A stretch of 64,000 bases of DNA from Phycisphaera sp. (lineage in GTDB: Bacteria; Planctomycetota; Phycisphaerae; Phycisphaerales; UBA1924), in assembly GCA_025916675.1 (NCBI GenBank), contig CP098402.1, positions 3,033,205 through 3,097,204 of the forward strand, given 5' to 3'. Below are positions 53,693 through 57,614 of this stretch, piece after piece. A model generated the notes under the pieces. The model was given only the letters and a program-made list of their open reading frames with translations, was not told where the DNA came from and did not search any database. How positions within the stretch are numbered: position 1 is the first letter of the stretch; each line of letters opens with the position of its first letter. The position numbers were made by a program, and so were the translations under genes.

Positions 53693-55291
53693 TCAGTGGT
53701 GGTCGCGGTACCCGCCCGAGGGGTCGCCCACCTCGAGCACGCTCAACGAGTTCACCACGCGGGCTGTGCCCAGCGGCCGGCCGGCCACCAGCAGCACCTG
53801 GTCGCCCGCCTCCACCCAATGGTGCTCGAGCAGGTAGGCCTCGACCACGTCGGTCCAATCAGCTAGGCGTCCGCTCTCGGGCGGCTGCTGCAACACGGGC
53901 CACACGCCGCGCAGCAGCGCCATGCGCCGCGAGGCGGCCGCGTCGCTCGACCACGCGATGATGGGGATGTCGAAGTCGTTCTGGCTCAGGTACCGGGCCG
54001 TCCCGCCCAGCTGGCTCCAGCACACGATGGCAGTCGCGTCGAGATCCTCGGCCAGATGCCACGCGCCGTGCGCGAGCGCGGCGGTGCGGTAGCGCGTCTG
54101 CTTGAGCTTCTGCGGCGGGCTTGCCTTGCCCTCGGCCGTAGCGAGCGCACACTCGGCCGCACGCGCGATGCGCGCCATCATGTCGACGACCAGCGCCGGG
54201 TGCTTGCCTACGGCCGTCTCGCCCGAGAGCATGACCGCGCCGGCGCGATCGAAGATGGCGTTGGCCACGTCGCTGGCCTCGGCCCGAGTCGGAATCGAGC
54301 TCTCGATCATCGTCTCGAGCATCTGTGTGGCCACGATGCAGGGCTTGCCCCAGTCGTTGGCGGCCTTGATGATGCGCTTCTGCGCGGGCGGAACTTCGGG
54401 GATGTCCATCTCGACACCCAGGTCTCCACGCGCCACCATGATGGCGTCGGCCACCTGGGCGATCTCGTCGATGCGCGCGAGCGCCTGGGGCTTCTCGATC
54501 TTGGCGACAATCGGGATTGGCTCGCGGTCAGGATTCTCAGCGATGATCAGGTCGCGAAGCTCCTCGATCTCCTTGCCGCTGCGCACGAACGACAACGCAA
54601 GATAATCCAGCTCGTTAGCCACCGCCCACTTGACCATCTCGCGGTCGCGCTCGGTCAGGGCGGGCACCTTCAGTTCGGTCTCGGGCAGGTTGATGCCCTT
54701 GCGCGTCGTCACCGTGCCGCCCATGGTCACCACGCAGCGCACGGCGTTGCCATCGGGCTCGATGCCGACGGCCAGCATCCGGATCGCCCCGTCATTGATC
54801 AGCACGCGCTGGCCCGGCTGCACCTCGTCGACCAGCCCGCCGTAGGTCAGCGGCAGCGCGGGAACACGCTCGCAGTGGTCGCCTTCGGGCTCTTCGCGGA
54901 TCTCGGCGGTCTCGATGCTCCGGTCGAGCAGCACGTTCTGGCCCGGCTGCAGCTCGATGCCCCCGTTCTCGTCGATATCGGGCACCGTGCCAACGCGGAT
55001 CTTCGGACCGGGCAGGTCGCCCAGCACGCCGATGCACGCGCCCTTGGCCTGCGCCGCATCGCGGATGGCCTCGAGCCGCTTCTTGTGCTCGTCGTTGGTG
55101 CCGTGGGAGAAGTTCAGCCGGAAGATGCTCGCGCCCGCATCGATCAGGCGTTCGAGCACGGCGGGGCTCTCCGAAGCGGGGCCGATGGTGGCCACGATCT
55201 TCGTCAGCGTGGGGCGCTCAGTGCGCGCGGCGTTGTCGACCGGCGTTGGGGTCAGCTTGGGCATGGGCGCTGGGTGGAGTTGGGTTGGCAC
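53693..55291 (-). CDS. pyk: Pyruvate kinase
   Basis: 532 aa; makes pyruvate and ATP from phosphoenolpyruvate in glycolysis. LTKIVATIGPASES at the N-terminus, FRLNFSHGTNDEH, GDLPGPKIRVG, IVAKIEKPQAL, MVARGDLGVEMDIPEVP (active-site Lys and Mg ligands nearby), MLSGETAVGKHP, and a C-terminal allosteric-type domain about 390-532. The Glu/Lys around the K+ site cannot be judged by eye. The N-terminus is extended by about 20 residues; start is GTG at 55291 with GGAAGG upstream; an internal ATG (PKLTPTP) is an alternative 9 codons later. Confidence 0.95.
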   Translation of the reverse strand: MPTQLHPAPMPKLTPTPVDNAARTERPTLTKIVATIGPASESPAVLERLIDAGASIFRLNFSHGTNDEHKKRLEAIRDAAQAKGACIGVLGDLPGPKIRVGTVPDIDENGGIELQPGQNVLLDRSIETAEIREEPEGDHCERVPALPLTYGGLVDEVQPGQRVLINDGAIRMLAVGIEPDGNAVRCVVTMGGTVTTRKGINLPETELKVPALTERDREMVKWAVANELDYLALSFVRSGKEIEELRDLIIAENPDREPIPIVAKIEKPQALARIDEIAQVADAIMVARGDLGVEMDIPEVPPAQKRIIKAANDWGKPCIVATQMLETMIESSIPTRAEASDVANAIFDRAGAVMLSGETAVGKHPALVVDMMARIARAAECALATAEGKASPPQKLKQTRYRTAALAHGAWHLAEDLDATAIVCWSQLGGTARYLSQNDFDIPIIAWSSDAAASRRMALLRGVWPVLQQPPESGRLADWTDVVEAYLLEHHWVEAGDQVLLVAGRPLGTARVVNSLSVLEVGDPSGGYRDHH

Positions 55292-55315: not shown

Positions 55316-56872
55316 TCAGTTCGGCTGGGAGCGGGCCTCGAGCTCCACCACCTCCTTATATCGGTCGCGGAAGAACCGGGTATAGGCGATTCTGGCCTCG
55401 GCGGCGGCCTCGGGGTCCCGCCACACGTTGCGGACGGCCCTGTAGTTCTCCTCGCTGAATACAAGGACCTGGACATTCCCGTCCTCATCCACCACTTCCT
55501 GGCTGGGGAAGGCGTAAAACGCCGCTTCGGCCTGTGCGAGCACCGGTGCCCAGGCCGGGTCACTCGAAACCATGCCGCGCAGGCGCCACAACGCCGCCCA
55601 CGCCTCGTGCAGCTCATCATCGCTGTCGACGCCGAACGCCCCCATCATCACCGGGATGGCCGACCGCCAGCCGCGCGACGGCACGTCGGCCGCAGCCTCG
55701 AACGGGTCGAGCGGATCGATAAAGCGATCGGCGTGCTTCTCGTACATCACCCGCCGCACCGGCGCGCGGCGCAATTCGTACTTGATCGGCCCGACCGGTG
55801 CAGGCCCGGTTTGCTCGGGATTGGCCGAGAACTGCCACAGGCTCTGCGCCTGCTCTGTCATGCAGAACTCGACGAACCGCCTAGCGAGCTCAAGGTTCGG
55901 CCCGCCGCGCAAGATCGAGATCGGGTCGGCATCGATGTACACCGCGCCCACCGGATCGACGTAACCCACGCGGCTCGATTCGGGCGGCGCGCCAGGGGCC
56001 GTGACGGCCTGCGCCTGGGTACGCCCATAGAAGTCGATAGCTAAACCCGCCATCGCCTCGCCGGCGGCGATGTCGAGTGGCGGCTTGGTCGCCGCGCTGG
56101 TGAAGTACCGCGTGTTCGCGCTCATCTCGCGCAGGATCTTCCAGCCCTCGTCCCACCCGTAGGCGTTCTGGATCGACTCGAACGTCGTGGTGATCGAGCC
56201 GCTCTGCCTGGGGTCGGCCAGCGCGACCTGGCCCATCAGCCGCGGGTCGGTCAGGTCCTTGAAGCCAGTGGGCGTTTCCATGCCCGCCTCGGCGTACAGG
56301 TCCTTGTTGAAGATGATGCCAAAGCCCGAGAGCGCCACGCCCAGCCAGTACTGGTCCTGTTCGTAGAGCAACTGATTGCCGATGGCATTCTCGCCGAACC
56401 ACTCATCGAGCTTCGATTGCTCGAACCCCGCCGGCACGCTGATGGGCACCCGGACGTCCTCGCCGTCGATCTCGACGGTGAACCCCTTGGCGATCTCCGT
56501 GTGCTCGTAGCTCCCCCCGCCGAAGAGCATGTCGAAGCCCATACGGCCCGGCTCGATGACGACCTCGCCATCGATCAATTCGTACTCGTCGTTGCGGATC
56601 GCCGCCTGGTACTGGTCTACGAGCAAACGCCGGATCTCGCTGGTGCCGCCCGGCGCGCGCCAGTCGATGGTGACCGGCTCGCCATGATTGTCCTCGTGCC
56701 ACGCGGAGAACGCGCGCTCGAACTCGAAGCGGATCTGCTCGGTGTGGGGCGTAATGATGACCAGCGTCGGGCCGTCGGCGCTGGCCCCGCCCGCGCCGCG
56801 CGGCCGAACCGCCCAGGGCAGGGCCAGCAAGATCACGAGCAACACACCCAATATACCGGCCGTCCACCGCAT
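55316..56872 (-). CDS. Extracellular solute-binding protein (ABC-type, iron/sugar-binding fold)
   Basis: 518 aa. An uncleaved-looking N-terminal hydrophobic segment (WTAGILGVLLVILLALPWAV) would anchor or export it. The fold matches family 1/Fe-type binding proteins: VIITPHTEQIRFEFERAF, MGFDMLFGGGSYEHT, ALSGFGIIFNKDLYAEAG, ALADPRQSGSITTTFE, and a late ARRFVEFCMTEQAQSLWQF. It is longer than usual owing to a C-terminal extension (about 400-518). No permease or ATPase gene is adjacent. It starts from a leaderless-type promoter shared with the SDR gene on the other strand. Confidence 0.85.
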   Translation of the reverse strand: MRWTAGILGVLLVILLALPWAVRPRGAGGASADGPTLVIITPHTEQIRFEFERAFSAWHEDNHGEPVTIDWRAPGGTSEIRRLLVDQYQAAIRNDEYELIDGEVVIEPGRMGFDMLFGGGSYEHTEIAKGFTVEIDGEDVRVPISVPAGFEQSKLDEWFGENAIGNQLLYEQDQYWLGVALSGFGIIFNKDLYAEAGMETPTGFKDLTDPRLMGQVALADPRQSGSITTTFESIQNAYGWDEGWKILREMSANTRYFTSAATKPPLDIAAGEAMAGLAIDFYGRTQAQAVTAPGAPPESSRVGYVDPVGAVYIDADPISILRGGPNLELARRFVEFCMTEQAQSLWQFSANPEQTGPAPVGPIKYELRRAPVRRVMYEKHADRFIDPLDPFEAAADVPSRGWRSAIPVMMGAFGVDSDDELHEAWAALWRLRGMVSSDPAWAPVLAQAEAAFYAFPSQEVVDEDGNVQVLVFSEENYRAVRNVWRDPEAAAEARIAYTRFFRDRYKEVVELEARSQPN

Positions 56873-56878
56873 GAGGGC

Positions 56879-56888
56879 AGTCTACGCT
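56879..56888. promoter_or_regulatory. Symmetric bidirectional -10 between two start codons
   Basis: AGTCTACGCT holds TAGACT on the minus strand (56884-56879, 6 nt before the ATG at 56872) and TACGCT on the plus strand (56883-56888, 6 nt before the ATG at 56895). Both use the same TA pair at 56883-56884. Only 22 bp separate the start codons, so both mRNAs would be leaderless and the -35 region of each lies within the other gene. Confidence 0.6.
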
Positions 56889-56894
56889 CAGCCC

Positions 56895-57614
56895 ATGGCC
56901 CACCCGACCCATCCGAGCGATTCGAAGGCCGCCATCGTCACCGGCGGCACCGCCGGCATCGGCCTGGCCACCGCCACGCTGCTCATCGAGCGCGGCTGGC
57001 GCGTGCTCGTCGTCGGGCGAGATCCAAAACGCCTGGGCGAGGCCCTCGACGCCCTGGGCGGGAAGGCCCAGGGCTGCAGCGCCGACGTCAGCAAGCCCGA
57101 CGGCCCGGGCGCCATCGTGGCCGCGTGCATGAAGGCCTTCGGCAGCATCGACGCACTCATCAACAACGCCGGCACCGCCCCCTTGGTACCCCTGGCCCAG
57201 CACACGCCCGGGCTCATCGACCAGTGCTTTGCCACCAACGCCATCGGCCCGGCCAAGCTCATCCTGGCGGCGTGGCCCTATCTGTCGGCATCCAAGGGGC
57301 GCGTGGTCAATGTCTCGTCGATGGCAACGCGCGATCCCTACCCCGGCTTCTTCGCGTACGCGTCGAGCAAGGCGGGAGTTGAGCTGATGGTCAAGAGCAT
57401 CGCCAACGAGGGCCAGGCCGCCGGCGTGCGCGCCTTCGCCGTCGCGCCCGGCGCCACCGAAACGGCCATGTTCCGTGCGCTCTTCGACGAAGAAGCCGTC
57501 CCCAGCAGCGACGTGCTCGACCCCAAGGCCGTCGCCACGATCATCGTCGACTGTGCCACGGGCCAGCGCGACGATGACAATGGCAAGGCGATCGAGATCA
57601 CGCCGGATCGATAG
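56895..57614 (+). CDS. Short-chain dehydrogenase/reductase
   Basis: 239-aa NAD(P)-dependent oxidoreductase. Cofactor loop VTGGTAGIGLATATL, LINNAGTAP, catalytic Ser in NVSSMAT and YASSK (Tyr, Lys). A C-terminal APGATETAMF loop is usual. VVGRDPKRLGE after the second strand suggests NADP preference. Substrate unknown. Its TAG abuts directly on the TAG of the convergent gene (TAGCTA), leaving no room for a terminator. Confidence 0.92.
   Translation: MAHPTHPSDSKAAIVTGGTAGIGLATATLLIERGWRVLVVGRDPKRLGEALDALGGKAQGCSADVSKPDGPGAIVAACMKAFGSIDALINNAGTAPLVPLAQHTPGLIDQCFATNAIGPAKLILAAWPYLSASKGRVVNVSSMATRDPYPGFFAYASSKAGVELMVKSIANEGQAAGVRAFAVAPGATETAMFRALFDEEAVPSSDVLDPKAVATIIVDCATGQRDDDNGKAIEITPDR

Follow-up and report, generated by a model that had tools for sequence, protein, structure and literature searches.

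Results

Two head-to-head genes and the sequence between them

The window analysed here is a stretch of 64,000 nucleotides from Phycisphaera sp. (contig CP098402.1, positions 3,033,205 to 3,097,204), in which an extracellular solute-binding protein and a short-chain dehydrogenase/reductase (SDR) are encoded head to head (Table 1). The first-pass annotation had placed the two start codons 22 bp apart with a -10-like hexamer 6 nt before each ATG, and these coordinates were correct when the sequence was re-read. In a Pfam search neither protein resembled a regulator, and among the named relatives found the best protein identity, 90%, was to contigs deposited as Phycisphaerae or Phycisphaerales. 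On the same strand, the solute-binding gene is directly followed by a putative pyruvate-kinase-like ORF, judged by eye (53693-55291 of the window).

Table 1 Features of the divergent gene pair, in positions of the window
Feature	Position	Strand	Details
Extracellular solute-binding protein	55316..56872	-	518 aa; start ATG 56872-56870 (CAT at 56870-56872 as read on the plus strand); Pfam SBP_bac_6, 2.1e-16
Short-chain dehydrogenase/reductase (SDR)	56895..57614	+	239 aa; start ATG 56895-56897; Pfam adh_short, 3.1e-48
Whole intergenic region	56873..56894		22 bp; 21-24 bp within the genus
AGTCTACGCT, overlapping pair of predicted -10 elements, TA-centred	56879..56888	both	invariant in 7/7 genus genomes, flanks not
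TAGACT, predicted -10 of the solute-binding gene	56879..56884	-	6 nt before ATG; 6.8 bits (host-sample leaderless -10 matrix)
TACGCT, predicted -10 of the SDR gene	56883..56888	+	6 nt before ATG; 6.3 bits (host-sample leaderless -10 matrix)
Alternative in-frame SDR ATG, upstream	56871..56873	+	overlaps the solute-binding start codon; use unlikely

The longer SDR start at 56871 was rejected, as it is out of frame in one relative (L008, gap of 24 bp) and absent in another (L010, gap of 21 bp). A longer start for the solute-binding protein is excluded, as TAGACT begins with an in-frame stop codon, TAG, 12 nt upstream.

The two hexamers of AGTCTACGCT have the TA at 56883-56884 in common, and match E. 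coli TATAAT at 4/6 and 3/6 positions. At the sequence level they form the overlapping opposite-strand -10 pair that marks a bidirectional promoter, both scoring above 6 bits, and the predicted start sites are 23 bp apart when the A of each ATG is taken as +1. The site had been described as one symmetric -10 element, but it consists of two unlike hexamers with a two-base overlap. No Shine-Dalgarno match was detected at either start (locus L004; best scores -0.8 and -2.9 bits), in agreement with the proposed lack of a ribosome-binding site. Each start combines two features of leaderless genes, the lack of a Shine-Dalgarno sequence and a -10 at about 6 nt, a position for which there is a genome-wide signal in the host sample (see below). 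Neither a -35 nor an extended -10 is visible at the window site, and no Rfam family scored at or above its gathering score at 56300-57500.

Predicted leaderless -10 elements in the host genome

For the host sample, the window was combined with 20 further 20-kb stretches (464 kb in all, GC 66%), and 294 genes were called in it with a simple codon model. TANNNT is the label for the -10 just upstream of leaderless start codons. Counted with gene starts of our own choice, this motif ended 6 nt before 13/262 called ATG starts (5.0%) but before only 0.1% of 2901 internal ATGs, an enrichment of about 50-fold as expected of leaderless -10 elements, and it was also raised at gaps of 7 nt (8 of the 262) and 5 nt (5 of the 262). 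At gap 6, only 1/3200 internal ATGs of the sample has a hexamer that reaches the scores of TACGCT and TAGACT.

When EM was run on upstream regions with one motif, it settled on an AAGGAG-like Shine-Dalgarno sequence rather than on a -10, so that a two-motif mixture was needed. Fitted to 288 genes, with our own start choices favouring starts with a -10, this mixture assigned about 68% to Shine-Dalgarno and at most 32% to a TANNNT-like -10, mostly at gaps of 5-7, the latter share being a maximum, as the 'no motif' class had shrunk to 0.4%. A search for a -35 element in 30 strong leaderless host genes found none, TTG at a spacing of 16-18 occurring in 2/30. Judged by the TANNNT enrichment, the hexamer scores and the lack of Shine-Dalgarno matches, leaderless starts appear to be a minority mode in the host, and both window genes appear to bear that signature.

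Among 44 divergent neighbour pairs, called with start choices of ours that favour starts with a -10, the shared-TA layout was found only at the window pair, itself deliberately made part of the sample, so that the layout is rare within one genome. Another divergent host pair, with a 45-bp gap (L034:1389-1439), carries separate leaderless-type -10s, TACGCT (7 nt) and TACGAT (5 nt), and is a split counterpart of the window layout. At L053:7613-7623, the putative start codons of two called genes are head to head and just 5 bp apart (CATTGGCCATG), each start codon falling within the possible -10 of the other gene (TACCAT, TGTCAT).

Conservation of the 10-mer within the genus

Seven genomes from the family search made up the genus set (G000-G006, G000 being the host), and the gene pair together with the site was present in all of them. 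The first-pass annotation had named loss of the TA-centred symmetry in close relatives as a finding that would speak against it, and the symmetry was kept in 7/7. When the seven genomes were aligned on the 10-mer, 10/10 core columns were invariant against 0/6 flanking columns on each side. In the solute-binding gene (roughly its first 500 codons; six genomes, the partial G001 omitted) 30/141 fourfold sites (21%) were invariant, and in the SDR gene (seven genomes) 6/63 (9.5%); fully invariant 10-column windows numbered 4/1407 and 0/681, respectively, over the same codons and genomes. The gap measures 22 bp in five genomes and 24 and 21 bp in the other two; since these lengths shift the frame, the 10-mer cannot owe its conservation to coding for a longer SDR protein.

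The solute-binding hexamer stands 6 nt from its ATG in 7/7 genomes. The SDR hexamer does so in five, and lies 8 nt away in L008 and 5 nt away in L010, where a leader of a base or two is therefore possible. It had also been claimed that the gap leaves no room for separate promoters, which is too strong, as promoters could sit inside the neighbouring gene; the conservation of the site argues against them. The proposal that both genes are leaderless, each with its own -10 and the TA shared, fared better, being supported as a prediction from sequence.

The same gene pair beyond the genus

The solute-binding protein was found in 56/61 genomes searched, and 49 loci were examined, one per genome for 49 of the 56 (the truncated L009 was replaced by L074 from the same genome). 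An SDR gene was divergently adjacent at 21/49 loci, a count that may be low because short flanks and contig ends could hide more. With start choices of our own that favour starts with a -10, both starts carried a -10 of at least 5 bits at 14 of the 21 paired loci, and exactly one start had a good -10 at the remaining seven, on the solute-binding side in six. Among the 14, the TA was shared in eight, i.e., the seven genus loci and L027 of genus g25 (AGTGTACGGT), and the -10 elements were separate in six (L011, L012, L015, L016, L031 and L081). In L011 (genus g16) the gap is 63 bp long, and the same TAGACT and TACGCT as in the window each keep the 6-nt distance to their own ATG.

A quick protein tree, in which many branches are weak and gain is indistinguishable from loss, places L027 in a group (SH-aLRT 99) with L017 and the separate-form L016, apart from the window genus, g1. 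Because of this placement away from g1, the shared-TA form of the solute-binding/SDR pair probably arose more than once, that is, at least twice.

These loci bear on the idea that only one direction, probably that of the solute-binding gene, is a true promoter, the other -10 being a by-product of symmetry and the SDR gene being expressed otherwise. We regard this as unlikely: although a single good -10 falls on the solute-binding side at 6/7 of such paired loci, and the SDR hexamer departs from the 6-nt distance in two of the seven genus genomes, the SDR-side CGCT, comprising all four bases outside the TA, is invariant in 7/7, and the separate TACGCT of L011 still keeps its 6 nt from the SDR ATG.

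Recurrence at other gene pairs in the family

Pattern searches were run on 163 family genomes, with the reversed pattern and a shifted spacing as controls. The narrow pattern CATN{5,9}AGTSTACGSTN{5,9}ATG occurred at 16 places in 16/163 genomes, 13/16 with ORFs of 100 codons on both sides, against 0 for the reversed pattern; with the spacing set to 13-17 there were 3 places, and 2 for its reverse. The broader palindromic pattern CATN{5,8}AGNSTASNCTN{5,8}ATG gave 31 places in 27/163 genomes, and its reverse gave 15, which means that some of the 31 may be chance. When the spacing of the broader pattern was shifted by 8 (13-16), a single place was left (15 for the reverse). In our view the spacing control is the fairer of the two, as it keeps all elements. 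ORFs of at least 100 codons flanked 19/31 places on both sides and were lacking at 12/31; the sole shifted-spacing place was also flanked by two such ORFs. In a phylum sample the broader pattern was present in 44/246 genomes and the reversed control in 22 (our own count). The fully general geometry CATN{5,7}ANNNTANNNTN{5,7}ATG is too loose for counting, because it matched 5 host places against 3 in the reversed control and only the window place among the five had ORFs of 100 codons on both sides.

That the hexamers came together in the short gap by accident is very improbable. Six-letter -10 matches are short and the reversed pattern has a background of 15 places, but neither accounts for an invariant core between freely varying flanks in seven genus genomes, or for 31 places against 1 in the spacing control. 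For the genus, core conservation already refutes a chance arrangement, barring an unrelated constraint on the same ten bases. The overlapping pair of -10-like hexamers in the 22-bp gap is a confirmed observation and is more than chance.

Pfam was run on one representative locus per pair, and on both loci for the OMP decarboxylase/GBBH-like_N pair. Nine of the pairs among the 19 places have a Pfam family on both sides. The 19 comprise the window pair (solute-binding/SDR; 7 genomes), asparagine synthase/Vut_1 (3/3 genomes of genus g7), OMP decarboxylase/GBBH-like_N (two genera), pyruvate kinase/BtpA, ScpA/SIS, TatD/transglutaminase, Ham1/ketohexokinase, adh_short/AP_endonuc_2, PRAI/PRK and DNA polymerase III delta-type/unknown. 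At the three g7 loci (L124, L125 and L126), the starts of asparagine synthase and the Vut_1 transporter are 24 bp apart around a TA-centred element, with TACCCT as the asparagine-synthase hexamer throughout and TACGCT, TACTCT and TACTCT, respectively, on the other side. The Ham1/ketohexokinase set comprised 31 loci (30 search matches and L067), of which 21 were divergent; the TA was shared in five (L067, L094, L095, L112 and L113).

A palindrome between divergent genes is a common operator layout. The 10-mer could accordingly be an imperfectly palindromic binding site of a regulator, with the promoters lying inside each other's coding region and giving leadered mRNAs; AGTCTACGCT is near-palindromic, and AGCGTACGCT in L113 (Ham1/ketohexokinase) is a perfect palindrome. 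A regulator's site would, however, hardly be expected to split into halves that each stay 6 nt from their own ATG, as in L011, nor would it account for the enrichment of single TANNNT hexamers at 5-7 nt across the host sample. Moreover, the leaders would here be without a Shine-Dalgarno sequence, and no sigma-70-like promoter was found in 56700-57100 by simple consensus. We consider a regulator's site improbable.

A tighter arrangement is present in the host itself. The sequence at G000:C1:271213-271235 (L151:1501-1523) reads CATGGCCGTAGACTAGCCGGATG; the genes for a RecJ-like DHH/DHHA1 protein (minus strand) and a cobalamin adenosyltransferase (plus strand) face each other there across a gap of 17 bp, in which TAGACT and TAGTCT overlap as TAGACTA. 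G001 has this pair in the same layout (L152). Its predicted geometry fits the 18-bp class. For the 18-bp-class pattern the excess is weak, with 20 places as against 10 when the spacing was shifted.

Discussion

Our results suggest, with a probability that we put at roughly 0.8, that the 10-mer is a bidirectional promoter in which two overlapping -10 elements share a TA step and give rise to two leaderless mRNAs. This reading draws on the sequence, the spacing, the conservation, the leaderless -10 signal of the host, the separable halves in a relative and the spacing-specific recurrence. RNA polymerase would bind AGTCTACGCT in one orientation or the other, melting would begin at the shared TA, and transcription would start at the A of the ATG or a base or two from it, about 7 nt past the hexamer. 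Starting at or near the ATG, each product would be a leaderless mRNA, translated without a Shine-Dalgarno sequence. The actual start sites, leaderless translation and mutually exclusive occupancy are what we infer from this layout. If both mRNAs are leaderless as predicted, the promoter fills the intergenic region and locks the start codons about 22 bp apart.

The first-pass annotation had also suggested a built-in switch. According to the excerpt of PMC12825309, polymerase cannot bind both ways at once at a bidirectional promoter, and the basal activity of five of five tested E. coli bidirectional promoters was too low for polymerases to compete. For the candidate switch to be plausible, one direction would therefore have to be strong or activated. 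More tentatively, and in our estimate doubtful as a whole, this Phycisphaerales family might possess a minimal two-gene unit, in which 10 bp serve as the promoter for both genes with no 5' UTR, which would have arisen repeatedly at unrelated head-to-head pairs in 23-bp and 18-bp geometries, and in which mutually exclusive polymerase binding would couple the outputs.

Bidirectional promoters are usually recognised from start-site maps alone. Where both genes start leaderless, the predicted start sites can be read from the DNA itself, so that RNA data would not be needed to detect such promoters or to compare them between genomes. In addition, comparing the split form (L011) with the shared forms (genus g1, L027) reveals the relation between two ordinary leaderless promoters and a single shared one, and allows a direct test of whether sharing couples the two genes.

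Leaderless mRNAs and bidirectional promoters are each already known separately. What appears to be new is one promoter with two leaderless coding mRNAs that fills the intergenic region and is conserved across a genus and at several gene pairs; among the matches listed from the open-access literature, no bidirectional promoter with two leaderless coding products was found, and the founding 2021 paper may contain such cases. By occurrence counts, the word 'leaderless' is absent from PMC12825309 and PMC10268837.

The window site resembles the bidirectional promoters of Warman, Grainger and co-workers in its overlapping opposite-strand -10s, which the Grainger group described in a further paper as well (PMC10268837, in excerpt). 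In the excerpts of PMC12825309 and PMC10268837, start-site distances of 18 bp are commonest and those of 10 and 23 bp are also common, the latter being the distance predicted here. The window pair had been called an extreme case, which is not supported: 23 bp is one of these three common distances, the same layout recurs at other gene pairs of the family, and the host has the tighter pair with a 17-bp gap. The excerpts of both papers likewise place bidirectional promoters often between divergent genes, yielding two mRNAs, with 24% of those of E. coli so located (PMC12825309). Unlike the published promoters, both window mRNAs are predicted to be leaderless and no -35 is visible in the window.

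With leaderless genes such as those of Corynebacterium glutamicum, where 33% of mRNAs are leaderless (PMC3890552, in excerpt), the window genes have in common a -10 about 6 nt before the ATG and no Shine-Dalgarno sequence. They differ from known leaderless genes in having part of a -10 in common, and most genes of the host sample are of the Shine-Dalgarno type. Divergent genes with overlapping core promoters are also described for EcoRV CR/M, but the C transcript is not leaderless in the excerpt of PMC5333194. The core promoters of lysG/lysE of M. tuberculosis overlap as well, and a second lysE promoter gives a leaderless transcript; in that account (PMC5648196, in excerpt) the two genes are 108 bp apart and lysG encodes a regulator, whereas the window genes are separated by 22 bp and neither is regulator-like.
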